Assembly: GCA_016213675.1 (NCBI GenBank) | Contig: JACQZW010000054.1 | Span: 62,001 to 126,000, forward strand | Direction of reading: 5' to 3' | DNA from: Acidobacteriota bacterium | Lineage (GTDB): Bacteria > Acidobacteriota > Thermoanaerobaculia > Thermoanaerobaculales > Thermoanaerobaculaceae | DNA length: 64,000 nt | In this document: positions 40,677-60,126 of the stretch, one piece after another | Numbering within the stretch: the stretch's first letter is position 1 | Layout of the letters: every line of letters starts with the position of its first letter | Made by a program: the position numbers and the translations under genes | The notes under the pieces: generated by a model | Database searches by the model: none | What the model was told of the DNA's origin: nothing | The model's input: only the letters and a program-made list of their open reading frames with translations

Positions 40677-42347
40677 CTACGGAACGATCCAGTCGGACGC
40701 AGTCACCAGTTGCGCCGGCTCGGACTCGTCGAAGCGGAGGATGAAGCACCCCTGCGAGGCGAACCGCGCCCCAGGCGCCAGCGTCAGGCGTGGGTACATC
40801 GAGGACGTCAGCATGCCGTCGACCATGTGCTCGATGCGCTCGACGAAGTAGTCGCGCGAGAAGTAGCCGCGCAACTCCATCATCGCCTCGACGGTGAGGG
40901 CGAGGACGTAGAACGTGCCGATCTGCACGCGGTCGTCGCCCGGGGCAACCTTTCGGCTCCGCAGCCATCCCCGGGTCCTCGTCAGCCGACCGTCCAGCAG
41001 GTCGGGTCGCTCGAAGGGCGAGGTGAGGAGCGCCTTCGCGCGAACTGCCGGTGGGACGGCGCCGACGCCGTCAGCCAGCACCGAGACGGAGAGGACGACG
41101 TGCTCGACGCCGGCGAGTTCCTGTTGGCTCTGGCCGAGGCCCTCGAGGTCGGCGGACCGCAACCACGCGACCAGGACGTCGGGCCGCTCGCGTTGGAGCA
41201 GGCTCGTCCAGTCCGCGGCGGTGATTGGGCCGGACGTCGGGAACGCGTGGTCGTGGAGCGCGAGTGCAGTGTTGCCCTCCAGCGCCTTGCGCAGCGCCGG
41301 CGACGCACCCAGGTCATGGCCTTCGCGGTACGCCTGGAGCACGCGACGCTGCCGGCCTTTCGCGGTGCGCTCGAGGTGCCTGGCGAGCGCCGCGGCCTCG
41401 AGCGGGAGCCCGCGGGTGAAGTACACGGTGTAGAACTCGTCCTCGGCATCGACGGGCTCGTCGGTGATTGGGAACAGGCACGGCACCTGCAACCTCTCGC
41501 AGGCGTCGTGAATCGGCTGCCAGGAACCGGGCGCGATGCCACCCAGTACGGCGAAGACGGGCTGCCGGCGGTAGTGGTCGTCGAGCTGCGAGCCCCAGGT
41601 GGCCGGGGCGCCGTGGAGCTCCCAGACGTGCAGCTTCCACGTCCGGTACGCGCCGTACTCGCGTTTCATCTCGGCGGGTCCGCGCGCCTTGCGGCCGGCC
41701 TCGTTGCGGGTGCCGGCGTTCTTGTCGCGGAAGAACGCGTTCATCACGTCGAGGAGTCCCTGCCGGCCCCGTGGGTCGACGCCGTCGGCGATGATCGTGG
41801 CGAAGTGAAGGGTGCTCCCGTCGACCCCGGGCGACGAGAACGCCGACAGCGTCTTGAGGTAGGCGATGAGGGCCGCGACGTTCTCGTCGTCGAGGTCGTA
41901 GCGGGGCATCAGCGGATCGAGCTCTCGGCCGGACGAGTCGCGGCCGGTGCGCAGCGCCCGGGCGAGCGTCTCGTCGGTGTACCCGGGCCTGGTGCCCTCT
42001 CCCTCGGAGCGCCACAGGTTGGCGGTCCCGACCAATCCGAGGGTCACCGGCTTGTACAGCGCGTCCCCGGTCACCGGTCGGACGATCGCCCGGCCCTCGC
42101 TGGACCCGAAGCCGCTGCGCCGGTGGCAGGTGATGCACGCGGCCTGGTCGCCGGAAAGTGGAACGTCGCCCTGGACGGTGGCCCGAACGGGCCCTCCAGT
42201 GGCGAGGATGCCGCTGCGGTAGATCGTCTGGCCGGCAGCGCGGCGCTGTGCCTCGACCGCCGAAGGTGAGTCGGCGCCCGGGGCCGAGACAGCCGCCCCC
42301 ACGCCGACCAGCAGGGTCGCCAACGCGATTGCGGATCGCATGCGCAT
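40677..42347 (-). CDS. cytochrome c fused to a periplasmic-binding-protein (branched-chain type) domain
   Basis: A 556-residue secreted protein. The signal sequence is followed by a monoheme cytochrome c domain (about 30-170): heme motif CITCH at 71-75, likely distal Met147 in LMPRYDLDDENVAAL. Residues about 180-520 form a type I periplasmic binding fold: HFATIIADGVDPRGR, VFAVLGGIAPGSWQPIHDACERLQVPCLFPITDEPVDAEDEFYTV and HVVLSVSVLADG. This two-domain layout is known as a cytochrome c/ABC-transporter-substrate-binding fusion. It suggests ligand-dependent electron transfer or a redox-controlled receptor, but no function is established. It starts 8 bp after the Sco gene, so they are co-transcribed at the end of the copper/cytochrome cluster. 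Confidence 0.85.
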   Translation of the reverse strand: MRMRSAIALATLLVGVGAAVSAPGADSPSAVEAQRRAAGQTIYRSGILATGGPVRATVQGDVPLSGDQAACITCHRRSGFGSSEGRAIVRPVTGDALYKPVTLGLVGTANLWRSEGEGTRPGYTDETLARALRTGRDSSGRELDPLMPRYDLDDENVAALIAYLKTLSAFSSPGVDGSTLHFATIIADGVDPRGRQGLLDVMNAFFRDKNAGTRNEAGRKARGPAEMKREYGAYRTWKLHVWELHGAPATWGSQLDDHYRRQPVFAVLGGIAPGSWQPIHDACERLQVPCLFPITDEPVDAEDEFYTVYFTRGLPLEAAALARHLERTAKGRQRRVLQAYREGHDLGASPALRKALEGNTALALHDHAFPTSGPITAADWTSLLQRERPDVLVAWLRSADLEGLGQSQQELAGVEHVVLSVSVLADGVGAVPPAVRAKALLTSPFERPDLLDGRLTRTRGWLRSRKVAPGDDRVQIGTFYVLALTVEAMMELRGYFSRDYFVERIEHMVDGMLTSSMYPRLTLAPGARFASQGCFILRFDESEPAQLVTASDWIVP

Positions 42348-42355
42348 GGCGCGCC

Positions 42356-43069
42356 TCAGAACTTCTCGAGCGAAGCGGTGCGTGAGCCCTTGGGGACGAT
42401 GCGCCGATACTCGGCGACGATCACCTCGGCGCCGCCCAGGCCCTCCAGCCGCACCCAGCGCGACGAGTCAGGGGCTCGCAGGAAGGTGAGCGGCGCATGG
42501 TTGAACTTGCTGGCGGAGGCCGCTCCGAAGGCTCGCTGGGTGGCCTCGCTCTGGGCCTGCGTCCCGGTGAGGAAGAGCCAGTCCGGGCCGGCGTCGAAGC
42601 GCCGGGCGTACTCCCGCAGGCGGGCGGGGTTGTCGCGCTCGGGGTCGATCGAAATCGAGACGAGGACGGCGTCCTCGTTCGCCTCGTGGAGGGTGTCCTC
42701 GACCGTGGCGAACGTCGCCGTCATCACCGGGCAGATCGTGGTGCAGGTGGTGAAGATGAAGTTGAGCAGCACCGGCCGGTTCGTGGGCAGCATCTCGTCC
42801 AAGGCGACCTCGCGGCCGTCCATGTCGACGAGGGTGAGGCCCTCGAGAGACAGGTCCTCGACGGTCCGCTTGACGGCGGACTTGGCCGGCGCACTGCCGG
42901 TCGGCGCGCAGCACGAGGATCCGCTCGCGCCTGCGGCCGGCTTCGCCTTGTTCGTGGCCGGCGCATCGGCGGAGGATCCGGCGAACGCAGCCGTCGCGAG
43001 GGCGATCGCGAGTAGCGAGGCGAAGCCGAGGGTGCCGAGTCGGTGAGGTGCACGGGGGGGTGTGGTCAT
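42356..43069 (-). CDS. SCO1/SenC/PrrC-type copper chaperone
   Basis: A 237-residue protein with an N-terminal signal or anchor (GFASLLAIALATAAFAG) and a thioredoxin-like Sco domain (about 70-235). Copper ligands are Cys109 and Cys113 in FTTCTTICPVM and His191 in FNHAPLTFL. An extra SSCCAPTG motif near residue 51 may bind another metal ion. Sco proteins deliver copper to cytochrome oxidase or other periplasmic copper enzymes. Here no oxidase genes are nearby, but three multicopper-oxidase-fold proteins are, so these are the likely clients. The ATG at 43069 follows AAAGGA. Longer upstream frames have no supporting ribosome binding site. Confidence 0.9.
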   Translation of the reverse strand: MTTPPRAPHRLGTLGFASLLAIALATAAFAGSSADAPATNKAKPAAGASGSSCCAPTGSAPAKSAVKRTVEDLSLEGLTLVDMDGREVALDEMLPTNRPVLLNFIFTTCTTICPVMTATFATVEDTLHEANEDAVLVSISIDPERDNPARLREYARRFDAGPDWLFLTGTQAQSEATQRAFGAASASKFNHAPLTFLRAPDSSRWVRLEGLGGAEVIVAEYRRIVPKGSRTASLEKF

Positions 43070-43131: not shown

Positions 43132-45252
43132 TCATGTTCCGGGTGCCGCGACGGTTTCGGTTGCGAGCAGCCGGCCGTCGTTGGTGCCTGGGATCGAGTT
43201 TCCGTTGACTTCGGATACGTATGCAGCAACGCCGCCTGTGGCCCAGGTAATCCCGTCGTCGGCGAGCGTGACGCGGAGGCTCCCGCCGTCTATCGAGGCG
43301 ACACCGAGGCTTTCCGCGAACTGATCGACCTGTAGGTACTCGCCGGGCCGCAACTGGTAGGTCCGGCCGGCCAGCGCCGTGCCTTCGGACTCGAGGAGTT
43401 CGACGGTCACCGCCGCCGGGAGGAGCGAGCCGCCCGCGGACCCGCGGGTGTTCTGCAGGATCAGGTTGCTGCGCGCGACGTCTCCCTGGGAGAAGCCGTA
43501 GATCCGCCCCTCGATGCCGGGGACGACCTCGCCGGCCCCGGAGAGCGGCGATATGGCTTGGCCGTACGTCATTCCGGCGCTCGCCGGACCCGCCTCGGTC
43601 GAGTACGTGCGCATCCAGCCGAGGAGCGCGCCGGATTCGGTCGCGTCGACGCGGATCGATCCCTTCGTCGGCGGGGTCAGGAGCAGGGCGCCGAGCAGGG
43701 CGTTCTCGCTGGCGATGGCGTTCGCGGCCGGGAGCTGCAGCGTCAGGCTCGGCTGCACGTCGGCGTTGTCCCGCCCGCTCGGGAAGTACGCCAGGGCCGG
43801 CGCCAGGTGGCGCTCGCTGACGTTGAACAGGATCAGATCGCTCTGCCAGTGGCTGTTGTTCAGCCCGTCGATCAGGGCGGCCGACGGCAGCCAGAGGATC
43901 CGCTCGGCCGCGGGCCCCCACTGGGCGGGGAACTGGCAGCCGTCGTTGCTGGTGTTGTCGATCACGCTCGTCGAGGCGACCACCCGCCCGTCGATCCCGG
44001 TGACCTCGAAGCGGTGGAGGCTTTCCTCGAAGCTCGCCGTGCCGGGGTCGGGAAGGAGGCCGGGGAAGGCGAGGCGGAAGAGGTCGTCGAGCTGCCAGAA
44101 GGTCAGGGGCGGCACGTCAATAGACCGCTCGGCCTTGAGGTTGCCCGCCCGGTCGAGCCCGCGGATCAGGACTCTCGTGCACCTCCGGTCGGTGGCGAAG
44201 CCGAGGTTGGTCCGATAGCGGCCGGCGACAGCGGGCACCACCTGCGGCGTACCGGCAGGCGCCGCCGGGTTCCAGCGCTGGCCCGCGACCTGCTGGCCGT
44301 ACCGGCGGCTCGCGTCGATGCGGTTGTACGTGTTGGCGGAGACCAGGAGGCGCGTGGAGTCTCCGGCCGTGACCCGCCAGTGGATCGCCCCGCTGCCGGT
44401 GGTCCCGAACAGGGAGGCGACGACGTCGGGCACGGTCAGCGTCTGTCCCGGCGCGACGGTCCGGGTGCGGACCTGGCCTGGATCGACGGTGCCGCCGCGC
44501 GGGCTGAAGTACAGGTCGACGGCGAGGTCCTGCGCCGAGGCGTTGTGCAGGAAGAGGTCGGAGTGCCAGTCGCTTCCGGAAAAGCCGCCGACCGCGGCGA
44601 CTCCAGGGACCACGCCGGTCATCACGGGCGTGCCGGCGCCGACGCCGCGGGCGAAGGTGAAGTCGTCGCAGAACCAGTGGCGCGGACCCTGGGGGCTCGC
44701 CTCCGAGTCGAAGATCTCGAAGCTCGTGAACCCGTCGGGGTCGATGACGCCGAGGAAGGCGTAGGTCGAGCCGAGGGCGAGACTGCCGCTGTCCACCGGC
44801 GCGCCGTCGACGCGGATCCGGAGGGTGGTGGTGCCGGTCGACGTCTTGAACCAGCCGCCGAGCGCCACGAGCGTGCTTTCGCTCCACCCCCGCAGGACGT
44901 CGGGGTCGCCGCCAGGCTCGTCGTACAGCGCCCAGCCGGAGCGCGCGGCCCAGTTGTTGGTCGTGATGCCGTCCGAGCCGGACCAGGCGATGCCCTGGCT
45001 GGTCACGGAAGCTGCGGTCACGGGGCTGATCGGGTTGGCGGTGCGGACGCCGGCCCACGCGGCGCCCTCGAACCCCTCGGTGAACTGGTCGTACCCCGCG
45101 GCCGTGAGGGCGGCCAGGTAGGTTGCCTCGTCGGTGTAGGCGGTGGCCTCCGCGCCGGCCGGTGCGGCGGGGAGCAGGACGGCGAGGATCACGGCGCTCG
45201 CCAGCAGCGGCCCGCGGAGCTTCCTCGGAGCTCGTGAGCGTGTGTGCGTCAT
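43132..45252 (-). CDS. large secreted protein of unknown function
   Basis: A 706-residue protein with a signal peptide (LASAVILAVLLPAAPAGAEA). The N-terminal part (about 40-225) resembles a carbohydrate-binding or PEP-CTERM-type sandwich, with EGFEGAAWAGVRTANP and GTTTLRIRVDGAPVDSG, ending RHWFCDDFTFARG. The rest contains two related blocks, each with HSDLFLHN / HWQSDLILFN and a following strand-rich region (about 240-420 and 470-640), so it has an internal duplication. I cannot name a family with confidence. No transmembrane anchor or CxxCH is present. It lies inside the copper/cytochrome cluster, 62 bp before the Sco gene, and is probably exported with the other cluster proteins. Confidence 0.65.
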   Translation of the reverse strand: MTHTRSRAPRKLRGPLLASAVILAVLLPAAPAGAEATAYTDEATYLAALTAAGYDQFTEGFEGAAWAGVRTANPISPVTAASVTSQGIAWSGSDGITTNNWAARSGWALYDEPGGDPDVLRGWSESTLVALGGWFKTSTGTTTLRIRVDGAPVDSGSLALGSTYAFLGVIDPDGFTSFEIFDSEASPQGPRHWFCDDFTFARGVGAGTPVMTGVVPGVAAVGGFSGSDWHSDLFLHNASAQDLAVDLYFSPRGGTVDPGQVRTRTVAPGQTLTVPDVVASLFGTTGSGAIHWRVTAGDSTRLLVSANTYNRIDASRRYGQQVAGQRWNPAAPAGTPQVVPAVAGRYRTNLGFATDRRCTRVLIRGLDRAGNLKAERSIDVPPLTFWQLDDLFRLAFPGLLPDPGTASFEESLHRFEVTGIDGRVVASTSVIDNTSNDGCQFPAQWGPAAERILWLPSAALIDGLNNSHWQSDLILFNVSERHLAPALAYFPSGRDNADVQPSLTLQLPAANAIASENALLGALLLTPPTKGSIRVDATESGALLGWMRTYSTEAGPASAGMTYGQAISPLSGAGEVVPGIEGRIYGFSQGDVARSNLILQNTRGSAGGSLLPAAVTVELLESEGTALAGRTYQLRPGEYLQVDQFAESLGVASIDGGSLRVTLADDGITWATGGVAAYVSEVNGNSIPGTNDGRLLATETVAAPGT

Positions 45253-45262
45253 CGTCCCCTCC

Positions 45263-45730
45263 TCACTCCACGATCAGCCCGTCGGCGCGGAAGTCGCCGA
45301 CGACCACGGTCACGCGGCTGCCAGGCTTGATGTACTTGCCCGGGTTGGCGAAGAACATGAAGTACGTCCTTCCGGCCTTCGGCGGGTAGGTGGTGCGGAG
45401 CGCCCCCGTCTTCGGAGGCACCGGGACCTGGAACTTGGCGCCGGTCGCCTCGTCGATCAGGTACGGCTTGATCTTCCGCTCGAACAGCGGCGCCGCCTTT
45501 GCCGGGTCGAGCACCTTGTAACGGAAGTCCAGCATGTACCCGGCCGCGCTCTCGCGAAGCGCGACGATCTCGATGCCCCACCGCTCGCGCATGGACTCCG
45601 CGGCGGTCGGCGAGGCGGCGAGAGTGGGCTGTGGTGCGGTGACCGAGGCCGAGCCGGTTGACGGCACCGCGACCACGAGGGTCGCGAGGAGGAGGAACCT
45701 GGTTGCGGTCGTGCTCAGTCGGTGCGTCAT
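45263..45730 (-). CDS. small secreted protein of unknown function
   Basis: A 155-residue protein with a signal peptide (FLLLATLVVAVPSTGSAS). The mature part begins with SMRERWGIEIVALRESAAGY then MLDFRYKVLDPAKAAPLFER and KPYLIDEATGAKFQVP, and ends GSRVTVVVGDFRADGLIVE. This looks like a compact beta-sandwich. I associate the pattern with a conserved family often near copper or Sco genes, from memory and not verified. No metal-binding motif is evident. It sits 10 bp before the large secreted protein gene and after a hairpin that follows the third oxidase-fold gene. Confidence 0.7.
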   Translation of the reverse strand: MTHRLSTTATRFLLLATLVVAVPSTGSASVTAPQPTLAASPTAAESMRERWGIEIVALRESAAGYMLDFRYKVLDPAKAAPLFERKIKPYLIDEATGAKFQVPVPPKTGALRTTYPPKAGRTYFMFFANPGKYIKPGSRVTVVVGDFRADGLIVE

Positions 45731-45838: not shown

Positions 45839-47758
45839 CTACTGGATTCGCCTGACGATGTTGATGCGCATGGTCGCCACGTTGGAGATGGCGCCGTCGT
45901 TATCCCTGACGGTGTAGGTGAACGTGTCGGTACCCCTGACGTTGATGGCCGATGCGTAGTCGATCGTGCCGTTACCGTTGTTGTAGGCGGTACCGCCCAG
46001 GCTCGTCGTGATCCGGGGACGCGGGTCGCCCGGCAGCACGGCCTGGCCGGTCAGCACGACGCTGGCCGGGTTGATGGTGCCGTCCTCGTCCGTGTCGTTG
46101 GCGACGAGGCTGAAGCCGGTGATCGTGCCGTTGCGGGCCCGGACGGCGAAGTCGTCGACGGCCACCGGCGGGTGGTTCGGGTCGACGGTGATGGTGACCG
46201 TGACGGTGTTGCTGTCGAGGCCGCCGTCATTGGCCTTGTAGGTGAAGGTGTCGACGACCTGGGTCGCCCCGCCGTTCTCGCGGTTGTAGGTGAACGAGCC
46301 GTCGTTGGCCCCCCACGTCAGGGTGCCGCCGTTGGTCGTCCCCGAAACCAGAAGTGCGGTCAGGGGGTCGCCGTCCGCGTCGGAATCGTTGGCGAGGACG
46401 CCGGGCGCCGGGACGACGAGGTCGGTCCCGGAGAGAGCGGTGTAGCCGTCGGCGGTCGCGACAGGGGCGTCGGCCGTCGGCGCGACGACGATCTGGACCG
46501 TCGCCGGGGCGCTGGTCTGGACCCCGTCGGATGCCTGGTACGTGAAGCTGTCCGTGCCGTAGAAGTTCGGGTTCGGGTTGTAGGTGAAGGAGCCATTGGA
46601 CGCCAGCGCCACGACGCCGGCGGTGGTGGGCGAGGCGAGGACGGCCGTCAGGCCGGTCGCCGGGGTGTCGTTGCCCAGGACGCCCGGGGCAGCCACCGCG
46701 AGGAGCGTGTCCTCAGTGGCGTTGTAGCCGTCGTTGGCCGCAGTCGGGCCGCCGGTCGGCGACAGGACTTCGAGGTGGGCAAGCAGCCCGCCGCCGCCGG
46801 CGCCGTCCGTGGTGAGGTGGAGACGACGGTCGTAGACCGGGTAGGTGCCGGCCGTCGACGGCTGGAAGATGGCGTCGCTGGTCTTGCCGGGGGCGAGGTA
46901 AACGTTGTACTGCGCCCGCGGGTAGGGGTACTTGGAACCGTCCTCGGCGACCACCGACCAGTAGGCGTTCTGGACGACGGGCACGTGAGCCTTCAGCCCG
47001 GCGTTGAGGAAGCGGATGAGGGTCTTCTCGTTCGCATCGCCGGCCGGGATCGCCGGGTCGCCGGCCTGGTAGGGCTGGCCGTTGACCAGGAAGTAGCGCG
47101 GGTCGTAGTTGATGGCGTTGGCGGGCGTCGCCGTGGCGTGCAGCGCCGCGTCGACCTCGCTGTAGAACATGATGACCTCGTTGTCGTACTCGACGCCGGC
47201 GTACGCCTGCGCCTTGGCGGGCGGGGCAGCCTCGACGGCGTTCTTGGTGACCGCACCGTAGAGGCCCATGTGCGCCTGCAGCGTGACGTGGCTCCCGCTC
47301 TGGTAGAGGAAGGTGCCCGCCCGCAGGCCTGTCCAAGTGAACGTCGCGCTACCGCCGGCCGGGGCCTGGGCGATGAACGACGTGGCCCGGGTTCGTCCCT
47401 GCGGGTCTGTCATCGTGCCGGCCGGGACCGAACCCCCAGTGACGGCTGGGAGCGCCTCGCCCGGCAGGACGATCGACACGCCCTCGGGCAGGTTGTTGGT
47501 GAGGTTGACGATCAGGTCCTCCCCGGCGGGTACGACGAGCCTCGGCCCCGGGACCGTGACCGTGCCGAGGCTCGGGCAGGTGCCGGCCACGGTGGTCGCG
47601 GTGCAGGCGAAGCCCCACACCGGCACGTTCTGGCCGGCGATGACGACCGTCGCTGCCCCGGCGGTCAGGCTGTATTCCGCCGCGAAGGAGGCGCTTGCCG
47701 CCGTGGCGGCGACCGCCAGCACGAGTGCAAGCCTTCCGAGTGTCCGTTTGCAGTTCAT
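45839..47758 (-). CDS. multicopper-oxidase-fold protein lacking copper ligands, fused to tandem Ig-like/cadherin domains
   Basis: 639 residues. The signal peptide is followed by two cupredoxin-like domains (about 25-330) with the oxidase spacing: GPRLVVPAGEDLIVNLTNNL, FLYQSGSHVTLQAHMGLYGAV and KTSDAIFQPSTAGTYPVYDRR. The HWHG, HxH, HPxHxH and HCH copper motifs are all replaced, so it should not bind a trinuclear cluster. Residues about 335-639 form three Ig-like/cadherin (VCBS-type) repeats with AxDGYxAxxGTxL, GVLANDSDADGDPL and TDSFTYQASDG patterns. Such repeats usually mediate calcium-dependent adhesion. It is the third cupredoxin protein in a row and may be a structural partner of the two upstream oxidases. 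Confidence 0.8.
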   Translation of the reverse strand: MNCKRTLGRLALVLAVAATAASASFAAEYSLTAGAATVVIAGQNVPVWGFACTATTVAGTCPSLGTVTVPGPRLVVPAGEDLIVNLTNNLPEGVSIVLPGEALPAVTGGSVPAGTMTDPQGRTRATSFIAQAPAGGSATFTWTGLRAGTFLYQSGSHVTLQAHMGLYGAVTKNAVEAAPPAKAQAYAGVEYDNEVIMFYSEVDAALHATATPANAINYDPRYFLVNGQPYQAGDPAIPAGDANEKTLIRFLNAGLKAHVPVVQNAYWSVVAEDGSKYPYPRAQYNVYLAPGKTSDAIFQPSTAGTYPVYDRRLHLTTDGAGGGGLLAHLEVLSPTGGPTAANDGYNATEDTLLAVAAPGVLGNDTPATGLTAVLASPTTAGVVALASNGSFTYNPNPNFYGTDSFTYQASDGVQTSAPATVQIVVAPTADAPVATADGYTALSGTDLVVPAPGVLANDSDADGDPLTALLVSGTTNGGTLTWGANDGSFTYNRENGGATQVVDTFTYKANDGGLDSNTVTVTITVDPNHPPVAVDDFAVRARNGTITGFSLVANDTDEDGTINPASVVLTGQAVLPGDPRPRITTSLGGTAYNNGNGTIDYASAINVRGTDTFTYTVRDNDGAISNVATMRINIVRRIQ

Positions 47759-47773
47759 CTCATCCTCCTCCGT

Positions 47774-49177
47774 CTATGGAATCGGGGTCCCGGGCGGTTC
47801 GACGATCAGCATGGTCATCATGCCGCCGGGGAAGATATCGAAGTTGGTAAGTTCCTTCTCGGTGTGGCTGTGCCACATGAAGGTGAAGCCGGCGTTCGGG
47901 TTCAGACCGCCCTGCCCGGGGGGCAGGGAGCCGAGGGTCCCGAGGTAGGGCGAGCCGCTGTAGAAGCCGCCGAACGTCAGGTCGAGCGGTTCCGGCAGGA
48001 CCACCGGGAACAGCTTGCCGTGATCGCCGCAGTCCTCCTTCGTCACCGGGTCGGTGACGCCGGGCTGGGTGGCGCCGGGGTCGTTGACGGAGATGCCGTT
48101 GCAGGTGTGCTCGTACTTCTCGCCGGTGCCGTAGAGATCCCAGCCCATGCCCTTGCCGGTCCAGGAGAAGATGGCGTCGACGGTCTCGCCGGGGATCGCC
48201 TGGATGGTGAAAACCTCGTAGCCCAGGTCGGGGCCGACGTTGGCCACGCCCTGGCCCGGCGCGCTCTCGAGGAGCCGGGCGTCCTTGGCGATGACCCGGG
48301 CGTGGTTGCCGTGGTGGTGGAACGGGTGCAGGTCGCGCCCGCCGGAGACCACTCGCATCAGCACGCTCTCGCCGGGACGCGTGCGGACCATGGAGCCGTA
48401 GGGCTGCGTCGGCATCCACGGGACGTGCGGGGCGAGCATCGAGTCCGGCGCGGTCCGGCCATTGAGGAACCAGTAGCCCGAGAAGTACTCGGACAACCAA
48501 TTGCTGGCCTCGATGGTCGCCAGGCCGGCGGGGATTCCGAACTCAAGCGCCTGGTGGATCCGCGGGTCCATCTCGGAGAGGACGAAGAGGTACTCGTGGT
48601 CGAACGCCGAGCGGGCGTCACCGTACGCGGTGCCGGCGACGGGGTTGAAGCCGGTCGGCCGCACGACGATGGCGCCGAGGACGCCCATCTCGACCTGCAG
48701 CTCCGGCCGGGTGCCCGAGTTGTAGAGGAAGGTCCCGGGGCGGGACGCGGTGAAGGTGTAGACGACGGCGGACTCGTCGACGCCCACTGTTCCCGGGTCG
48801 TCGGCCTGCGCGGCCTCTCGCGTCAGGAGCCCGGGCACGCCGCCGGTCGCGGAGACCTCCATGCCGGGGAAGACGAGCGACACGCGGCCGGCCGCCACCG
48901 GCAACGCGTTCCTCAGGGTGACGGTGATCGTGTCACCCTGGTTGAGGATCAGGGTCGGCGCCGGGTACTGGGGGCCGGCCGCGGGATCCGGGGAGAGGCC
49001 CCAGAAGTACAGGCTGATGCCGTCTCCCGAGGTCACGTACCCCTCCTTCACCGTGAAGGCGAAGTTGGTCCCGGTCAGGCCCTCGATCAGCGAGTGGGCG
49101 CCAGCCACCGTCGGCAGCAGGAGCAAGGCCGCGAGGACGATGGGGACCGGTGCGAGTCGAAGCAGTTGCCGTTTCAT
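47774..49177 (-). CDS. multicopper-oxidase-fold protein B with C-terminal copper ligands only
   Basis: A 467-residue secreted protein (signal LLLLPTVAGA). The first cupredoxin domain (about 45-175) follows the oxidase pattern (APTLILNQGDTITVTLRNAL, GTFLYNSGTRPELQVEMGVLGAI) but its two His motifs are lost. The last domain keeps them: LHPFHHHGNHARV (His284, 287, 288, 289 and 292) and FMWHSHTEKELTN (His436 and His438), ending FPGGMMTMLIV. These match motifs 3 and 4 of multicopper oxidases, without the type 1 Cys. The missing domain-1 set is found in the gene 23 bp upstream. GGAGGAATGAG precedes the ATG at 49177; longer frames have no support. Confidence 0.85.
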   Translation of the reverse strand: MKRQLLRLAPVPIVLAALLLLPTVAGAHSLIEGLTGTNFAFTVKEGYVTSGDGISLYFWGLSPDPAAGPQYPAPTLILNQGDTITVTLRNALPVAAGRVSLVFPGMEVSATGGVPGLLTREAAQADDPGTVGVDESAVVYTFTASRPGTFLYNSGTRPELQVEMGVLGAIVVRPTGFNPVAGTAYGDARSAFDHEYLFVLSEMDPRIHQALEFGIPAGLATIEASNWLSEYFSGYWFLNGRTAPDSMLAPHVPWMPTQPYGSMVRTRPGESVLMRVVSGGRDLHPFHHHGNHARVIAKDARLLESAPGQGVANVGPDLGYEVFTIQAIPGETVDAIFSWTGKGMGWDLYGTGEKYEHTCNGISVNDPGATQPGVTDPVTKEDCGDHGKLFPVVLPEPLDLTFGGFYSGSPYLGTLGSLPPGQGGLNPNAGFTFMWHSHTEKELTNFDIFPGGMMTMLIVEPPGTPIP

Positions 49178-49200
49178 CTCATTCCTCCTCATCGTCGCGC

Positions 49201-50460
49201 TCAGTTGATGACGATCTCGGTCATCATTCCGCCGAAATCGTCCTCCCGGTTGCTCAGGTAGTTGAGGTCCATGGCGTACAGGAAGTACTTGCCGGGCGCC
49301 ACGCCGGCGGTGTCGACGATGACGTCGGCCGACTCGCCGCCGCCCAGGGTCACCGACACCGTGTCGTAGGTGAGGTCCTTGCCCAGTAGCGGGCCAGCCC
49401 CGTCGGGATCCGGTCCGCGCAGGATCCGGGCGTTCCAGCCGACCACCTTGAACGGAAGCCCGAGCGCGCCGATCGAGAAGAAGCGGGTCACGGAGAGGTT
49501 CGACAGGCGCAGGAGCACCTTCTGACCCGCCGTGGCCGTGATGATCGAGTCGATCTTCTGGGACTGCGTGCCGGCCGGGTTGTAGGCCGTGGCGTTGGCC
49601 GGGTCGCCGTTCTCGTCGAGCGGCGGCGGCAGCGCCCCGGCGACGACCGTGTCCGGGTAGCCGCGACCGTTGAGCATCGCGTAGTCGTCCTTCATGGCGT
49701 AGAAGGGGAGCGGCTGCACCGCGAGGTGCTCGTCGTGGTAGTAGGAGTCGAACGATGCGAGCTGGATGGGGAACTCCACGTCGTAGCCGGTGGAGCCGTT
49801 CACGTCGTTGTAGGCGAACGTGGTGCACGGCGAGCCGCCGGCACAGGTGCCCGCGGAGGTCCCGTTCTGCTGGGGCCGCACGTAAAGGTTGCCGAGCATG
49901 CCCATCTGCATGTGCTCGGTCGCCTCGACGTGGCAGTGATACATGTAGGTCCCCGGCTCGACGACGTTGTAGAAGTAGGTGAAGGTCGATCCCATGTTGA
50001 TGGTCGCCGAGGAGTCCGGCACGCCGTCGAAGATCGCCGAGGCGTCCGGGAAGCCGTGCCAGTGCACGCTGTGCGGGTCGAACAGGTCGGGGCGGAAGAC
50101 CATTCCGACGTTGGAGAGCGACAGGTAGAGGGTGTCCCCTTCGTCGACGGCGATCGTCGGCGCCGGGAAGTTGGCGGCGACCAGGCCCTTGTTCGCGACC
50201 TGGTTCTCCGCGATGCCGGTCATGTCCGAAAAGCCGAAGGTGTACTGCAGGTGCCCGTCGGCCATGCTGATGAAGCCGTCGCCGGCCGACAGGTGCATGC
50301 ACTTCTGGTTCGCCGGCCAGATCTCGCCGGGGTCGAGCTGGGCGTTGTGGTTGGTGTCGCCGGGGCACTGGACGAAGATGGCTGCGAACGACGGCAGCGA
50401 CCCCATGACGAGCCCGGCAACCAAGAGGAGCATTGCCTTGTGAATCCCGCGTCCTTGCAT
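49201..50460 (-). CDS. multicopper-oxidase-fold protein A with N-terminal copper ligands and type 1 site
   Basis: A 419-residue secreted protein. Near the N-terminus DTNHNAQLDPGE looks like a calcium-binding EF-hand loop. Domain 1 has SVHWHGFP (His133, His135) and MYHCHVEATEHMQMGM (His175, Cys176, His177, His183, Met186 or Met188), giving a type 1 copper site and half of a trinuclear cluster. The loop between Cys and His is two residues longer than the usual HCHxxxHxxxGM. Domain 2 (about 280-419) keeps the fold and the ending DFGGMMTEIVIN but has no copper ligands. The complementary ligands are in the next gene, 23 bp away, suggesting a hetero-oligomeric oxidase. A hairpin and AAAGGAG precede it. 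Confidence 0.87.
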   Translation of the reverse strand: MQGRGIHKAMLLLVAGLVMGSLPSFAAIFVQCPGDTNHNAQLDPGEIWPANQKCMHLSAGDGFISMADGHLQYTFGFSDMTGIAENQVANKGLVAANFPAPTIAVDEGDTLYLSLSNVGMVFRPDLFDPHSVHWHGFPDASAIFDGVPDSSATINMGSTFTYFYNVVEPGTYMYHCHVEATEHMQMGMLGNLYVRPQQNGTSAGTCAGGSPCTTFAYNDVNGSTGYDVEFPIQLASFDSYYHDEHLAVQPLPFYAMKDDYAMLNGRGYPDTVVAGALPPPLDENGDPANATAYNPAGTQSQKIDSIITATAGQKVLLRLSNLSVTRFFSIGALGLPFKVVGWNARILRGPDPDGAGPLLGKDLTYDTVSVTLGGGESADVIVDTAGVAPGKYFLYAMDLNYLSNREDDFGGMMTEIVIN

Positions 50461-50527: not shown

Positions 50528-53500
50528 CTACGGGCGGTCCTGCGTCTCGTCTGAGGTGCCCTGGTCGAAGTTCATCGGATCGAGCCCGAACAGCCGGATC
50601 ACTGCCGTGCCCGGGACGTAGTACTCGTCGGCGCCGATGTCCGGCAGCGAGCCCGGCGGGACCGGGTTGGGACGGGTCTGGAGGTCGAAGTCCTTCCGCA
50701 GGTCGATCGGGGTCGAACGGGTCGCGAGCGGCAGGCCCGCGCCGATCGCCGGCGAGGTCGAGGTGAGGTGGTAGTTGCCGTACGCCTGCCCTGCGTTGGG
50801 TCCGGTGATCTGGTTGAGTGTGAGCGGGCCGAACCGCAGCTTGATGAAGTTGCCGCCCTCGTCGAAGGCCACCGGCGCCTGGATCGCGGTCGTCGTCTCG
50901 GGCTGCTGAAGCGTGGCGCCGCGGTTGCCGTTGTAGTAGGCCCGGACGACGGCCGGGTCGCTCGTCAGGTTGCTGACGTGATACGAAGCCCCGTCCTCGG
51001 TCAGGGAGTCGAGGATGCAGTTGCGCGGGCTCATGTAGAAGCGCGGGACGTTAACCACGAGCACGCCGAGGTCCCAGAACACCGGGGCGTCCGGAGTGCG
51101 TGGCGTGCCGTCGCAGTTGACGTTCGAGAGGTCGGGGAAGAGCTTGTAGCACGGCGGATCGAAGGTGCCGTCGGCCGCGAAATAGAACGACCGGTTCTCG
51201 CGGATGATGGTGGTGTCGAGCGTTGGGTCGACGAAACGCCGCCGCTGCGACCGGTTGCCGACCGCGTTGTACAGCGCGTCGCTGTTGGCGCGCGACACGA
51301 TGCCGGCCGGTTGCGGCGTCGAACTCTGGTAGGGCGTGCCGCCCGGGTTTGGCTGGAACGCCTGTCCCGCCGTCGCGGTGCTGTCGTTGCGGGACACGGT
51401 GTTGTGACGGATGCTCACCCGGACCGCCTCTTCGAGCGAGATGCCGCCGCCGGCCAACCCCGAGATGTTGTCGACGATCATGTTGTTGAAGATGTCGATG
51501 GCGTACCAGGCGTTGGACAGGAACCGGTTCGCCTGGACGTCGAGGCCGTTGGCCCGGAGGATCCGGATGCCGCCGCCGTCGCCGACACCGGCCAGGTTGC
51601 CCTGGATGAGGTTGCCGACGATCTGCACCGAGCCCGAGCCCTCTGAGAGGCCACCGGCCGGGTTGGGCGCCGCGCCGGCGATGAAGATCCCGCCGCCGCT
51701 GACCGTCGTGCCCTGGTTGAAGTTCTCGTTGAAGAGGATGTTGTTGTGGGCGATGCGGCCGCCGTGGCTCAGGCCCAGGTGGCCGACGCCGCCGCCGTCA
51801 CCGAGCGAGAAGTTGCCGCAAATCCAGTTCTGCGACACCTCGTAGCCGGTGGACCCGGTGCACAGCGAGACGCCGCCGCCGGCGCCGCCCTGCCCGCCGT
51901 TCTCGTGGATGTGGTTGTTGAGGATGCGGATGCCGTCGTTCTGCGCGTTGACGTAGCGGATGCCGTCGGGGGTCTCCTGAGTCAGGGTCGGATGGCCCAG
52001 CCGGATGCCGCCGTCGTAGAAGCCGGCGTTGGCGTAGATCCGGTTGTTGGAGATCTGCAGGAAGTGCGCGTACCCGTTGACGAAGATGCCGCCCGCGTGG
52101 TCCGCACCGGTGATCGCGAGTCCGTCGATGCGGGCGTTGGGGGCCGAACCGACCAGGCCGAAGCCGCCGGTGCCAACGGTCGTGTTCTGGGCGAGCACGG
52201 CGATCGCCGGCCCTTCCTCGGTGAAGAGGATGTCAGGCTCGATCGGCGAGCCGGGGTTGATGGTCTGGCCCGGGAGCAGCGACACGGCGCCGCTGGTGAT
52301 CAGGCCGGCGACCTTGTCGCGCCACGCCTGCAGCTTCTCGGCGGGGGTCTTGACCGCGTTGATGGTGACGGAGCCGGCGCCCCAGCCCTGGAGCCTCAGG
52401 GGTCGCCACAGCACCACGAGCTCGTCGTAGATTCCCGGGCCGATGGTGAGCAGGCTACCGTTCGGCACGCTGGCCGTGTCGTCGATGGCGGCCTGAATGG
52501 TCGAGTAGTCGCCGCCGGACTTCTTCACGGTCCTCGGTGTCGGACCGCCGACCGTCACGGTGACGGTGTTGATCGAGTTCTTACCGCTGTCGTTGCGGGT
52601 CACCACGAGCTGACCGGTGGTGACGCCCGCCGGGACGGTGGCGGTGATCGAGGCGTTCGTCCAGGTGCCGATGGTCAGCGCCACGCCGCCGATCGTCACC
52701 TTGCTGCCGGGGCCCTGAGCCCCGAAGCCGTAGTCACGGACGATGTTCTTGGGCTCCGTGCCGCCGACCCCGTCGTAGGCGGGGTTGAGGACCTGGACGT
52801 CGCCCAGTGAGGTGATGATCAACTGCTGCGTGCCGTTTGCGGCGGAGACCCACGGTCCGTGCTGACCGCTGTCGGTCACGGACGAGATCTTCGGGGTCTG
52901 GGTCGGGAACTGGCAGTCGAGCGGAAGCTGGCCCGGACCCGCCATCGCCGCGATCGGGACCACCGGCGTATCGAGGTAGGTCGTGGTGCCCGGCATGTAC
53001 TGGAACGTGTAACAGAACTGGCTGTACTGCGGGTTGTGGAATTCGTCGGGGATGAAGCTCCCGGGGTTGTTGGGGTCGGGCTTGGTCGGCGTGTTGAGGC
53101 AGACCGTGATCATGCTCGGCGCCCATCCCGAGGGCTTCGGCTGGTTTGCGGTGTAGGTCGAGGGAACGAGGACGTTGTAGACGCCGTACTCGTCGGAGTA
53201 GGTGCGGGCGATCTCGCGCCCGGTCCAGTCCTGGATCGAGATCGGCAGCCACGGTGGCGCGTACTTCTCGCCGAAGTTCGGCGCGCTCGGGTCGAACTCG
53301 TTGGTCACGTCGTCGAGGATGAAGCCGTAGATGTGGCCGGCGACCGGGGCCTTGGTGAACAGGAAGAAGTCGGCCGCGGCGTTCTGACCGTTGGAGAGCT
53401 TGACCTGCTTGCGGTCGCACAGCGGAACGTGCTGACCCGCAGCCACCGCCGGAACACCGGGGAAGAGGTCGAGCTCGGCCGGGACCTTCTGGCCGGGGAA

Positions 53501-55918
53501 GCCGTCGTTGTCGACGTCGTCCCAGTTGACGCACGGCATCGGCAGCGCCAGCGGGCTCGGGTTGTAGTTCTCGCCGAAGTCGACGTTCTTGTCCTGCTCC
53601 TTGACGATCTCGTAGCCGGGAGGCTGGACCGTCTCGACGATGTAGATCCCTGCCGCCAGGTTGCCGCCGGCGGCGGAGCCGAAGGCGTAGCCACCGTCGA
53701 ACACCGCGGGGCGGACCTGGTTGAAGTTGCGCAGACCGTCGTAGCAATCCTTCGGGCTGCCGCGGAAGGTGAAGAGCTCGCCCTGGCAGCCGGTCGGAGG
53801 GTTGTCGTCCCACGAGTCGGTGTGGGCGGACTCGAGCGCATCGCCGAGGTCGAAGGTCCCGTTGGTGTTCCGGTCGACGTCCTCGGTACCCATGGCGCCG
53901 CCCTCGGACCAGCCGATCGGGTCGTTGTCGATGTCCGCGAGCTGGACGCCGGCGGGCGGGTTGATGTCGTCGATGTTCCCGTCGTCGTTGGCGTCCGCGT
54001 ACAGGTTGACCTGGATGCGCGGGATGCCGGGGGAGAACGGCTCGCCGAAGTTGTAGCGCGGGTCGTTCTCGGCGCGGGTCGTGTCATAGAACACAATTCC
54101 CGTGATGCCACCGTTCTCGCCGAACGGGTAGGCCTGCTTGCCCCACTCGAAGACGCTGGTCTGGCCGATGAACCCCTGGAAGCCCTCGAGAAGGACGGGG
54201 CCCGTCTCCGTTCGCTGCAGGTTGTGGCCGGTGTTCGGGTTGATCTCCTCCTGGCCGACCGGGCAGACGCCGGTGAGCGGGTCGAAGAAGACGCCGGGGA
54301 GACACTGCGGCTGCGGGTTGAGCTGGCCGCCCCAGCTCAGGGGGTCGGTGGGGTCGATAGGTCCACCGTTGTCGATGGTAATCGTGACGCCGGTCGCCTT
54401 GAAGCGCAGGTAGTCGACTTCGGCGACCTGCCAGGCAAAGAACGGGAACGTCTCGTCGAACCCGTAGTAACCGTCCATGTCGGTCGTGGACGACTGGTAC
54501 ATCGTGCCGTCGCGCCAGCGGATGTTGACCGCCTGGTCGGGGATCGGTACCTCGCCGGGGTCGCGGTAGCCGTCGCCGTCGGTGTCGTAGAAGACGTAGT
54601 GCTCGATGCGCGTGAACCACTGGAAGACCGGGACGTCGCCGAGGTTCATGGCTCCTGGACCGGCGGTGACGGTGATCGCCTGGAACGCGAAGATCATGTC
54701 GAGGGCGTCGTCCCAGACCACGAGCTGATAATCGCCGGCCGGAACGTTGGCGATCGAGAACGTGCCATCGCCGTTGCAGCGCTGCAGGGCAACGGCGCGG
54801 CCGGTGCCGGCCGGGCCAAGGTTGAGGCCGACCCACGCGGTCGAGTGGCCGATCGTCTCCCCGTCGTAGAAGGCGTAGTCCGGAGGCCGCGAGAGGTGGA
54901 GGTTCGTGACCTTGCCGCTGACGGTCTTGCCGCCGGTGAGGACGGTGGGATCGCTGTAGCTGCCGCCCGGCGCCCTGACGAAGCCGAACGCGGCGTGCGG
55001 CCCGGGCGGGCCGAACTCCATGAAGTACGTGGGCTCGTTGGCCTTCACCCAGGCGTCGATGACCTTCGTGCCTTCGATCGTGGAGGTCTGCACCCAGCCC
55101 AGGCCGGCCGGCGGCGTCACCTTGGTGCCGTACTTGCCGGGGGAGACGTTCTTGATGGTCGCGATGCCGTTGGCGTCGGTGAGGATGACGCCGTTGCCCA
55201 GCACGTCGACACACGGCTCCGGGTCACCGGGGTTCGGGCAGGAGGGCAGGTAGGTCGTGCCGAGCGGGTTGCCGAACGCGTCGGCCATCATCACGCCGGA
55301 CGAGATGCCGTAACGGCCGCCGGCATCCTCGAGGATGATGCTGAAGCCGGCCATGCAGCTCGGGCCGGGGCAGTCGGCGGGGTTGGGTTCCTCCTCGGGG
55401 TAGTCCGGCGCGTTGTTGACCGGCTGGTCGTCCTCGAAGACCATGATGCGAATCTGTGCGGTGGGGAGCGGGAGCTCGTGCATGTACACGGGGACCGCGG
55501 CTCCGCCGGCGATGTCGGCCGGAGTGATCTGCGCGCCACCGATCGCCCAGCTCCCCGCGACCTTCGGGATGACCGAGATGTAGTAGTGCTTGGTGGCGTC
55601 GAGTGCCGCGAGCGCAGCGGCGAGATCGGTCTCGTCACCGGCCGCTCGGACCGGCATGTAACTCGGGTGCATGATCACCGACAACGTGTTCGGGTCAGGC
55701 ACCCCCGGCTGCACGTGGTAGGTCTGATCCTCCTCGATGGTCCAGCGGTAGCCGCCGGCGATTGGGCTCGGCGTGCCGACCTTCGGGACGCCAAGCACGT
55801 CGACCGTGACGGCGCTCGCCGCGCCGGCCACGAGGAGGCCGACGACCAGGGCTGCTGTCACCAGCGACAGTCCGGCCCTGCCGTCTCGTAGCGTCGTGGA
55901 TCTGGGGTTGGTCCTCAT
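50528..55918 (-). CDS. giant secreted protein: SdrD-B-like repeats, IPT/TIG and parallel beta-helix
   Basis: About 1796 residues from the ATG at 55918 (AAGGAGGACACC upstream). The signal peptide ends near VAGAASAVT. Residues about 150-980 hold several SdrD B-like/carboxypeptidase-regulatory domains (GTFSIANVPAGDYQLVVWDD, FYDTDGDGYRDPGEVPIP, YADANDDGNIDDINPPAG, GGNLAAGIYIVETVQPPGY) with calcium-binding DxDxDG loops. An IPT/TIG-like domain follows (about 1050-1150), then a right-handed parallel beta-helix (about 1160-1600, many ISNNRIYANAGFYDGG-type turns). The C-terminus PDIGADEYYVPG is the choice-of-anchor-Q pattern. It is likely an outer-surface scaffold for the oxidases and cytochromes encoded beside it. 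No enzyme activity is evident. Confidence 0.85.
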   Translation of the reverse strand: MRTNPRSTTLRDGRAGLSLVTAALVVGLLVAGAASAVTVDVLGVPKVGTPSPIAGGYRWTIEEDQTYHVQPGVPDPNTLSVIMHPSYMPVRAAGDETDLAAALAALDATKHYYISVIPKVAGSWAIGGAQITPADIAGGAAVPVYMHELPLPTAQIRIMVFEDDQPVNNAPDYPEEEPNPADCPGPSCMAGFSIILEDAGGRYGISSGVMMADAFGNPLGTTYLPSCPNPGDPEPCVDVLGNGVILTDANGIATIKNVSPGKYGTKVTPPAGLGWVQTSTIEGTKVIDAWVKANEPTYFMEFGPPGPHAAFGFVRAPGGSYSDPTVLTGGKTVSGKVTNLHLSRPPDYAFYDGETIGHSTAWVGLNLGPAGTGRAVALQRCNGDGTFSIANVPAGDYQLVVWDDALDMIFAFQAITVTAGPGAMNLGDVPVFQWFTRIEHYVFYDTDGDGYRDPGEVPIPDQAVNIRWRDGTMYQSSTTDMDGYYGFDETFPFFAWQVAEVDYLRFKATGVTITIDNGGPIDPTDPLSWGGQLNPQPQCLPGVFFDPLTGVCPVGQEEINPNTGHNLQRTETGPVLLEGFQGFIGQTSVFEWGKQAYPFGENGGITGIVFYDTTRAENDPRYNFGEPFSPGIPRIQVNLYADANDDGNIDDINPPAGVQLADIDNDPIGWSEGGAMGTEDVDRNTNGTFDLGDALESAHTDSWDDNPPTGCQGELFTFRGSPKDCYDGLRNFNQVRPAVFDGGYAFGSAAGGNLAAGIYIVETVQPPGYEIVKEQDKNVDFGENYNPSPLALPMPCVNWDDVDNDGFPGQKVPAELDLFPGVPAVAAGQHVPLCDRKQVKLSNGQNAAADFFLFTKAPVAGHIYGFILDDVTNEFDPSAPNFGEKYAPPWLPISIQDWTGREIARTYSDEYGVYNVLVPSTYTANQPKPSGWAPSMITVCLNTPTKPDPNNPGSFIPDEFHNPQYSQFCYTFQYMPGTTTYLDTPVVPIAAMAGPGQLPLDCQFPTQTPKISSVTDSGQHGPWVSAANGTQQLIITSLGDVQVLNPAYDGVGGTEPKNIVRDYGFGAQGPGSKVTIGGVALTIGTWTNASITATVPAGVTTGQLVVTRNDSGKNSINTVTVTVGGPTPRTVKKSGGDYSTIQAAIDDTASVPNGSLLTIGPGIYDELVVLWRPLRLQGWGAGSVTINAVKTPAEKLQAWRDKVAGLITSGAVSLLPGQTINPGSPIEPDILFTEEGPAIAVLAQNTTVGTGGFGLVGSAPNARIDGLAITGADHAGGIFVNGYAHFLQISNNRIYANAGFYDGGIRLGHPTLTQETPDGIRYVNAQNDGIRILNNHIHENGGQGGAGGGVSLCTGSTGYEVSQNWICGNFSLGDGGGVGHLGLSHGGRIAHNNILFNENFNQGTTVSGGGIFIAGAAPNPAGGLSEGSGSVQIVGNLIQGNLAGVGDGGGIRILRANGLDVQANRFLSNAWYAIDIFNNMIVDNISGLAGGGISLEEAVRVSIRHNTVSRNDSTATAGQAFQPNPGGTPYQSSTPQPAGIVSRANSDALYNAVGNRSQRRRFVDPTLDTTIIRENRSFYFAADGTFDPPCYKLFPDLSNVNCDGTPRTPDAPVFWDLGVLVVNVPRFYMSPRNCILDSLTEDGASYHVSNLTSDPAVVRAYYNGNRGATLQQPETTTAIQAPVAFDEGGNFIKLRFGPLTLNQITGPNAGQAYGNYHLTSTSPAIGAGLPLATRSTPIDLRKDFDLQTRPNPVPPGSLPDIGADEYYVPGTAVIRLFGLDPMNFDQGTSDETQDRP

Positions 55919-55932
55919 CGGTGTCCTCCTTC

Positions 55933-56100
55933 TCAGTTCTTGCATGCGTGTTGGCCCCGCCGCGGGATCACCCGCTCGGCGAGCCGAAGGTGTTGAGTTG
56001 CCTGTGTGAGTTCGTATGAGGCGCGAGGTCGGCCGTGGAGTCGGATGAACCTCCGCAAGGCCGCCTTCCAGCGCAACACCTGAGTGCCGAAGTCGCTCAC
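55933..56100 (-). CDS. 55-residue basic protein encoded just before the giant secreted protein
   Basis: The frame starts at GTG 56100, preceded by AAGGAGGATCG, a strong ribosome binding site at ideal spacing. It ends at TGA 55933-55935, which abuts the AAGGAGGA that serves the next gene (14 nt between stop and next ATG), so translation is probably coupled. The product has 11 Arg, 2 Lys and 3 His, one Trp and a C-terminal Cys (ending ACKN), e.g. RWKAALRRFIRLHGRPRASY. I recognise no family. It could be a nucleic-acid-binding or regulatory peptide or a translational leader. Confidence 0.55.
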   Translation of the reverse strand: MSDFGTQVLRWKAALRRFIRLHGRPRASYELTQATQHLRLAERVIPRRGQHACKN

Positions 56101-56447: not shown

Positions 56448-56846
56448 TCACGGTTGGGCGCCGGTCTCGATCCAGGTCCGGACGAGGTCGAGCTGTTCGC
56501 GGGGGAGCCTGCGGGCGCCGAACAGCGTGCGGGGCATCCCCTTACCGATCTCGGTGGTGCCGAGGAGCTTGGCCCACAGGTAGGAGCCTTCGACGTCGCC
56601 CGGGACCACCAGCCGGACCCCGGTGACCTGGGTGCTGCCCTGCTCGGTGAGCGCGCGGAAGCCGGTGCCGGGATCGAGGATGAGGTCGGCCTTCGGCGTG
56701 TCGAGCGTGTGGCAGCTCTGGCACTCCTTGAGGAAGAGGGGCTCGATGTCGGCGGCATACGACGGGGGCTGCGCGGAGGGGGTCGGCAGGGCGACGATCA
56801 GCGCCACGACGGCGAGTGCGACGGCGAGATAGCGGGTTCTACCCAC
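56448..56846 (-). CDS. planctomycete-type (PSCyt1-like) monoheme cytochrome c
   Basis: A 132-residue exported protein starting with GTG after ATAAGGAGACCC. The signal sequence ends near LPTPSAQ. The cytochrome pattern is PSYAADIEPLFLKECQSCHTLDTPKADL, with heme motif CQSCH at 42-46. It continues GSYLWAKLLGTTEIGKGMPRTLFGAR, where Met in GKGMP is the likely distal ligand, and ends LVRTWIETGAQP. This matches the PSCyt1/cytochrome-c-like domain of Planctomycetes. It is a small electron carrier and, between the Cyc2-like gene and the copper oxidases, is well placed to shuttle electrons between them. Confidence 0.88.
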   Translation of the reverse strand: MGRTRYLAVALAVVALIVALPTPSAQPPSYAADIEPLFLKECQSCHTLDTPKADLILDPGTGFRALTEQGSTQVTGVRLVVPGDVEGSYLWAKLLGTTEIGKGMPRTLFGARRLPREQLDLVRTWIETGAQP

Positions 56847-59235: not shown

Positions 59236-60126
59236 CTAGCCGGCGGCGCGCTGATCGGCCGCCGCGAACTCCTCGACCCGCCGGAGCAGGGAGTCCAGGG
59301 TGCATCCGGGGACCGCGAGGGCTGCGCCGGCGGTGACTCCGAGCCGATGATCGTCGCGTGTGGGCGGGCAGGAGGCGGCGCCGACGAGGGCCCGGAAGGT
59401 GTCTGCGAGCTCCTCGAGCTGCTCCCGGGTGATTCTCCGGCACAGCGCGAGGAAGGCATCGTTGCGCCAGCGACCCAGGATGTCCTGGGGGTCCATGCGG
59501 TTCGCCAGTGTCCTCGCGACCGCGACGAGCGCCTGGTCGGCGGAGGCCGGGCCGTGGTTCGCGGCCAGCTCCTGGAGCCCCCTCACCCAAACCAGGATCA
59601 CGCCGAACCCCCAGCCGTGCCGGTACATCTCGCTCAGGCGCAACCTTACGTGCATCTCGATGAGCTTCCGGTTGGCGACGCCGGTGAGCGGATCGAGCCT
59701 CGCCTCTCCCACCTCCTCGGGGCCCTGGCGGGCGAGGGGTCCCAGGGCGAGCTCCCGGCTGAAGATGTACGCCGCCACCTGGTGCCGACCGGAGGCGTCG
59801 CGGAAGGGCGCGATCCGCACCCGGGCCGGGACGTAGGAGCCGTCCTTGTGACGGAGGTAGGCGTCGATCTCGCGGTGGCCGGAGTCGCGCAGCGTCTCGG
59901 CGAGCAGGTTCGTGACTGAACGCACCGACGCAGTGGCCGGGTCGACCGCGAGCAGGAGGTCGTCACGGCACCGCTCGCCCACGACCTCGGCGCTGCTGTA
60001 GCCGGTGATGGCCTCCGCGGCATGGTTCCATTGCAGCAGCGTCAAGCCCTGGTCGACGATGCAGGCCCCTTCGAAGAGGTCCTCGAGCCCGCCGGGCTGG
60101 ATGTCTGGCCGTGTCGTCGCGTTCAT
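59236..60126 (-). CDS. PAS-domain protein with degenerate GGDEF domain
   Basis: 296 residues. The PAS/PAC domain (about 10-125) includes GACIVDQGLTLLQWNHAAEAITGYSSAEVVG and VPARVRIAPFRDASGRH. The diguanylate cyclase-like domain (about 140-293) starts LDPLTGVANRKLIEM, but the active-site signature reads GRWRNDAFLAL instead of GGDEF/GGEEF, so it should not make cyclic di-GMP. It may bind GTP or act as an allosteric partner. An AAAGGAGG sequence 55 bp upstream of the ATG (60182-60190) has no correctly spaced start codon after it. It lies between the cytochrome operon and the NarL-type two-component pair on the same strand. Confidence 0.78.
   Translation of the reverse strand: MNATTRPDIQPGGLEDLFEGACIVDQGLTLLQWNHAAEAITGYSSAEVVGERCRDDLLLAVDPATASVRSVTNLLAETLRDSGHREIDAYLRHKDGSYVPARVRIAPFRDASGRHQVAAYIFSRELALGPLARQGPEEVGEARLDPLTGVANRKLIEMHVRLRLSEMYRHGWGFGVILVWVRGLQELAANHGPASADQALVAVARTLANRMDPQDILGRWRNDAFLALCRRITREQLEELADTFRALVGAASCPPTRDDHRLGVTAGAALAVPGCTLDSLLRRVEEFAAADQRAAG

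Follow-up and report, generated by a model that had tools for sequence, protein, structure and literature searches.

Complementary halves of a multicopper oxidase site in two adjacent cupredoxin genes suggest an enzyme assembled from three paralogous subunits

The window, by which we mean the whole 64,000-nucleotide stretch of DNA analysed here, carries all eight genes of an operon whose usual order, in the loci that we collected from GTDB genomes, is X, A, B, C, D (~155 aa) and E (~700 aa), with genes for SCO1 and a MofC-like monohaem cytochrome after E in a subset of these loci. In operon order, the genes of the window are the following:

50528..55945, minus strand: gene X, 1805 aa, SdrD-B-like surface protein, beta-helix plus IPT
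49201..50460, minus strand: gene A, 419 aa, exported two-domain cupredoxin protein; domain 1 (D1) has a complete type 1 (T1) copper site and half of the cluster ligands, domain 2 (D2) has none
47774..49177, minus strand: gene B, 467 aa, exported two-domain cupredoxin protein; D1 is ligand-free, D2 has the other half of the cluster ligands
45839..47758, minus strand: gene C, 639 aa, two-domain cupredoxin core without a copper ligand, then three Big_9/cadherin-like repeats; proposed third subunit of a ring
45263..45730, minus strand: gene D, 155 aa, small exported protein of the operon, conserved
43132..45252, minus strand: gene E, 706 aa, exported protein of the operon
42356..43069, minus strand: SCO1/SenC copper chaperone gene, assigned from a Pfam match (8.6e-23), its start codon and operon conservation
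40677..42347, minus strand: MofC-like protein gene, a monohaem cytochrome c domain followed by an apparent periplasmic binding domain (compared with PMC5566968)

A and B are separated by 23 bases, as an earlier sequence-only reading of this DNA had it, and B and C by 15 bases. Pfam places multicopper-oxidase domains in A, B and C alike, and gene E gave no family match. C, the third two-domain homologue, directly follows B and was absent from the sequence-only reading. Elsewhere in the window, an exported 390-aa protein (57068-58240, minus strand) has one CxxCH (CSNCH) at its mature N-terminus and a long beta-barrel-like remainder; it resembles a Cyc2-like fused cytochrome-porin, and Pfam and NCBIfam gave no match for it. 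Its gene adjoins that of a small monohaem protein (56448-56846, minus strand) matching PSCyt1 (PF07635), and a PAS-GGDEF diguanylate cyclase gene (59239-60189, minus strand) lies outside the operon.

Among proteins of solved structure, the profiles of A, B and C come closest to two type C two-domain multicopper oxidases, 3g5w (the blue copper oxidase of Nitrosomonas europaea) and 2zwn (a laccase from a metagenome), with E-values of 2e-21 for A, 4e-17 for B and 3e-13 for C. What each ligand residue of 3g5w does is well established for this family, and alignment with 3g5w gives A a full T1 site (H130, C176, H183 and M188) together with four cluster histidines (H133, H135, H175 and H177), the four cluster ligands of its domain 2 being lost. 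B is the mirror image of A: its domain 1 is without ligands, with YNSGTRPELQVEMG at the place of YHCHVNVNEHVTM in 3g5w, and the motifs of its domain 2 align with the T1-less half in domain 2 of 3g5w/2zwn, the second motif (H436-S-H438) weakly and to 2zwn. The ligand motifs are located as follows:

50056..50073, minus strand: A motif H130-S-V-H133-W-H135, with the T1 histidine H130 and the cluster histidines H133 and H135; invariant in 77/77
49897..49938, minus strand: A motif H175-C176-H177-VEATE-H183-MQMG-M188, with the cluster histidines H175 and H177 and the T1 ligands C176, H183 and M188; invariant in 77/77, M188 in 77/78
48311..48328, minus strand: B motif H284-P-F-H287-H-H289, with the cluster histidines H287 and H289; invariant in 81/81
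47819..47872, minus strand: B motif H436-S-H438...PGGM453, with the cluster histidines H436 and H438, both invariant in 81/81

In B, H284 occupies the position of a lost T1 histidine, and in the second motif a serine replaces the T1 cysteine. C aligns over both domains of 3g5w, and every ligand column is replaced. A and B sum to one T1 site and 4 + 4 = 8 cluster histidines, and, as judged from the alignments, the eight cluster positions of type C two-domain oxidases correspond exactly to the four histidines in A plus the four in B. Either protein alone would resemble a dead or atypical oxidase. The motifs quoted in the sequence-only reading (H133-W-H135, H175-C176-H177 and H183 in A; H284-P-F-H-H-H289 and H436-S-H438 in B) are all in place, and the ligand set that it gave for A is real and can be extended, since H130-S-V-H133-W-H135 gives a complete T1 site and four cluster histidines. 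Its assignment of A to the domain-1 side and B to the domain-3 side of a three-domain parent has to be reversed and the parent replaced: A is the T1-bearing half, i.e. domain 3 of a three-domain oxidase, B is the T1-less half, and both are two-domain proteins of the type C kind, with the T1 site in domain 1 of A.

To describe conservation, we gathered B-like loci from GTDB genomes with two search patterns, which found 137 loci, of which 80 were kept; A played no part in the selection. Among 77-81 homologues, the only His or Cys columns conserved in at least 97% are H130, H133, H135, H175, C176, H177, H183 and H242 in A and H208, H284, H287, H289, H436 and H438 in B, and no such column of C reaches 97%. 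The invariance of H436 is partly circular, as this residue lies within one of the search patterns; the other positions are unaffected. Invariant columns of any kind number 49 of 376 in A and 44 of 411 in B, and with so few overall, the full conservation of the ligands is not a by-product of general conservation. The complementarity pointed out in the sequence-only reading is borne out by these alignments, each protein holding what the other has lost, and the adjacent homologues with the same split pattern for which it proposed a search were found in ~80 loci from many phyla. Two acidic residues beside the T1 ligand H183 of A, E179 and E182, are invariant in 25 A sequences.

Some features outside the ligand motifs are also conserved. 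A histidine at the start of domain 2 is common to the three paralogues (A H242 in 78/78, B H208 in 79/81 and C H210 in 64/80), at a position that is not known as a copper ligand. Residues 32-61 of A form a QCPGDTNxxAxxD...C segment that looks like a Ca-binding loop with a disulfide, and its cysteines C32 and C54 are kept in 71 of 75-76 sequences. B has a specific insertion of ~100 aa between its ligand motifs (window 47888-48115, B residues ~355-430), containing a partly conserved Cys pair (C359, C383) and H386, which is present in 77/81.

The carriers include Acidobacteria, Desulfobacterota, Thiobacillus, Sideroxydans, Rhodoferax, Nitrospirae, Myxococcota, Planctomycetes and others, and many of them are anaerobic (Desulfobulbaceae, Desulfuromonadales); the cluster is present in many soil and sediment bacteria living on metals and sulfur. 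The gene order A-B-C is held in the loci, except on contigs that end within the cluster, and in every locus examined B is followed by C, which is often no more than a two-domain protein of ~340 aa. In the window's class, 149 genomes were searched; the 7 that have A are also the 7 that have a strong B, and each of them shows a second, weaker B-profile match at the position of C. In most loci X has a gene of its own, upstream of A; it forms the front part of a fused X-A protein in three (L042, L075, L089) and the rear part of a fused C-X protein in nine (L049, L060, L070, L074, L081, L082, L086, L095, L096), of which L095 is Cupriavidus metallidurans CH34 and L096 is Paraburkholderia. Since the fusion partner of X is A in one set of lineages and C in another, we argue that the three proteins A, C and X are parts of a single assembly. 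No natural A-B fusion was found, and in all loci A, B and C have a gene each. In L006/L058 an open frame of 893 aa was considered as an A-B fusion and rejected, since it spans a stretch of N (XXXX in the translation). The additional oxidase genes of L035, L041 and L046 were likewise rejected as family members, being CopA-like proteins, and those of L035 and L041 carry all four motifs.

In a tree of 43 sequences, the deep branches of which are weak, A, B and C each form one clade, and B and C are sisters (98/91). A two-gene form with the same split, in which a B-like gene (B') comes first, then an A-like gene (A'), and no C is nearby, occurs in two genomes of the window's class (L092, L093) and on two Indioceanicola profundi plasmids (L097, L100):

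L092, 3360-5617: divergent two-gene split oxidase, B-like gene then A-like gene
L093, 3840-5881: divergent two-gene split oxidase, B-like gene then A-like gene
L097, 3584-5921: divergent two-gene split oxidase, B-like gene then A-like gene
L100, 2173-4412: divergent two-gene split oxidase, B-like gene then A-like gene

B' of L092 and L093 clusters with B and C (99/96), whereas the Indioceanicola B' falls outside this group, implying that the split may have arisen more than once. The Indioceanicola B-like protein keeps HCH and has no second T1 histidine nearby, an apparent intermediate. When 396 genomes of the phylum were searched for the two-gene variant, only its source genome (G111) was returned, and a search of plasmids returned further pairs in Indioceanicola as well as complete one-gene type C enzymes, with both ligand halves in one chain, in Deinococcus (D. 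ficus) and Halomarina. The existence of two-gene variants without C implies that C is not required by every split enzyme.

Two-domain oxidases are trimers whose cluster is coordinated by residues of two protomers, and in type C the T1 copper is in the N-terminal domain (PMC13151041). The proteins of the operon are like type C enzymes in fold, domain number, N-terminal T1 site and the D1/D2 cluster ligands, but type C enzymes are homotrimers with three equal sites, whereas A, B and C are three gene products with complementary halves in two and none in the third. Examined singly, all three have two cupredoxin domains and similarity to 3g5w/2zwn; A has the T1 site in its N-terminal domain, B and C do not, and no polypeptide of the three holds both cluster halves. 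None is therefore a complete type C member by itself, and the set would appear to work like one. An active site common to A and B is our best reading of the sequences, because the ligands are complementary, invariant and always co-encoded, and because the nearest relatives build their cluster between subunits. On these grounds, the sequence-only reading's proposal of an active site at the A/B interface is supported, while its picture of the pair as the whole complex has to be widened, as a third subunit, C, is very probably part of the complex, together with the surface protein X.

For structure modelling we used the sequence of L046 (Desulfobulbus sp.), in which A, B and C lie in one frame, parted by stop codons and short spacers; the read-through product was modelled as a tethered complex with the stops as Gly and an alignment with paired rows, in one run for each combination. 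The A+B+C model has a mean pLDDT of 80.5 and a pTM of 0.84, with low confidence chiefly in the linkers, and is predicted to be a compact particle. The A+B model has a pTM of 0.63, and residues 762-819, the B segment holding HSH, are disordered; adding C thus raised the pTM from 0.63 to 0.84 and ordered this segment, with a similar number of B rows in the two alignments. When the A+B+C model was compared with ceruloplasmin, factors V/VIII and MnxG, six domains were matched by 3Di/sequence at E-values of 1e-40 or better, at a TM of ~0.2 and an rmsd of ~34 A, the low TM implying that the domains of the model are not in chain order around a ring. The Thermus thermophilus laccase gave a TM of 0.67-0.73 (by target) over ~750 columns with A+B+C and of 0.48-0.51 over ~565 columns with A+B. 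On the assumption that three two-domain units close into a ring in the model, only two cyclic orders are possible; since A-B-C would match ceruloplasmin spatially, A-C-B is left, and this inferred order would place B-D2 beside A-D1.

We consider it likely that A, B and C are specialised paralogues of a homotrimeric type C oxidase that now form an A:B:C heterotrimer with one active site. In the mechanism that we propose, the three paralogues would have divided the work of the homotrimeric two-domain enzyme, and a single A:B:C heterotrimer, a ring of six cupredoxin domains, would have replaced the homotrimer with its three equal sites. The T1 copper would be seated in domain 1 of A (H130, C176, H183, M188), the trinuclear cluster would lie between A-D1 (H133, H135, H175, H177) and B-D2 (H287, H289, H436, H438), with eight histidines, and C would complete the ring without copper. 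The repeats of C, or X, which is fused to C or A in some species, may tether the ring to the surface. Electrons from an extracellular donor, for which Fe(II), Mn(II) or a mineral are our leading guesses, would enter at the T1 copper of A and exit at the cluster, normally to O2, with SCO1 delivering the copper and the MofC-like cytochrome perhaps connecting the enzyme to the electron chain of the cell. A metal or mineral donor is favoured, short of proof, by the Sideroxydans proteome described below, by E179/E182 next to H183 of A and by the neighbouring Cyc2-like gene. The assembly would probably be one ring-shaped copper oxidase at the cell surface. On balance, and with less assurance than for the heterotrimer itself, we also favour a widespread enzyme with one ring and one cluster that would be a multi-gene counterpart of ceruloplasmin, mounted on the surface for extracellular (mineral) electron transfer. 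The use of an O2-reducing cluster in anaerobic carriers is not obvious, which counts against the proposed mechanism.

The best-placed competitor, which we nevertheless regard as unlikely, is that A and B share the cluster in a complex of their own (e.g. A2B, AB2 or A3B3), and that C is a separate adhesin sharing the fold and the operon. It would account for the divergent pairs L092/L093 and L097/L100, which have the split and no C gene nearby, but C comes after B in all the A-B-C loci examined, often with the two domains and nothing more, C is the sister of B in the tree, X is fused to A or C, and in the tethered models the addition of C raises the overall confidence and orders the HSH segment of B. 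The A:B:C heterotrimer is also to be weighed against a rather improbable scheme, offered as an alternative in the sequence-only reading, in which A is a T1 electron-transfer cupredoxin only; B would then bind a separate mononuclear metal (type 2 Cu or Zn), with no trinuclear cluster. The complete T1 site of A, the putative status of the oxidase reaction and the many anaerobic hosts all agree with such a scheme, but H133, H135, H175 and H177 would be superfluous in a T1-only protein, and the invariance of all eight type C cluster positions, four His each in A and B, would be left unexplained. That A and B are decaying duplicates, each half-inactivated and without joint function, is scarcely credible, for although duplicates in metagenome bins can be degraded (a general point, not one from these data), the two halves are preserved across many phyla with no exception, against a background of mostly variable columns, the divergent pairs show this split again, and the Sideroxydans proteins are expressed and regulated (PMC12016527).

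Six-domain oxidases are one polypeptide with the cluster between domains 1/6 or 2/3 (PMC3600357). Ceruloplasmin, MnxG and their bacterial relatives are like the proposed ring in that they have six cupredoxin domains and, two clusters having been lost, retain a single one, but they are single chains, whereas A, B and C are three chains, none with six domains, in a spatial domain order that is predicted to differ. Three-domain laccases have the T1 site in domain 3, and here there are two domains per protein and the T1 site is in domain 1 of A. The two-domain oxidases known so far form homotrimers, and those with six domains consist of one chain; an evolutionary route from two-domain to ceruloplasmin-like enzymes has been proposed, and a heterotrimer made of specialised paralogues, if true, would represent a living intermediate on it.

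The gene cluster was known before, from the work of He et al. and of Keffer et al. 2025 (PMC12016527). Slit_1812-1818 of Sideroxydans lithotrophicus ES-1, comprising three tandem multicopper oxidase (MCO) genes with a mofC-like gene and SCO1, agrees in gene content with the window's operon to the extent that it has been described, and relatives in Sideroxydans (L055), Paraburkholderia (L096) and Cupriavidus (L095) have A-B-C; from the matching gene set and these three loci we assign Slit_1812-1818 to the family of the window's operon. Its products reach higher levels on magnetite than with Fe(II)-citrate, the three cupredoxins rising together; of these three proteins, Keffer et al. 2025 described two as having canonical MCO motifs and the third, a larger one, as lacking them, pointed to Paraburkholderia and Ralstonia relatives and stated that the roles were unknown (PMC12016527). 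The ES-1 triple was published as uncharacterised, without a statement that its motifs are complementary halves, and the literature searched, which covered few subscription journals, contained no prior statement of a two-half site or of a heteromeric or split multicopper oxidase. With a shared site, the magnetite-induced cupredoxin cluster of iron oxidisers would gain a concrete, testable mechanism. OmpB/MofA of Geobacter and Leptothrix, also a multicopper oxidase of the cell surface, is alike in that its gene is accompanied by one for a MofC-like cytochrome and sometimes by one for an SCO1-type chaperone, but it is a single large chain, and the Sideroxydans triple has been reported to be non-homologous to it (PMC5566968). 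In C. metallidurans CH34 (L095), a laboratory model organism, at 1336097-1355515 of the megaplasmid, where the plasmid collection lists no gene, lies an A-B-(C-X fused) cluster.
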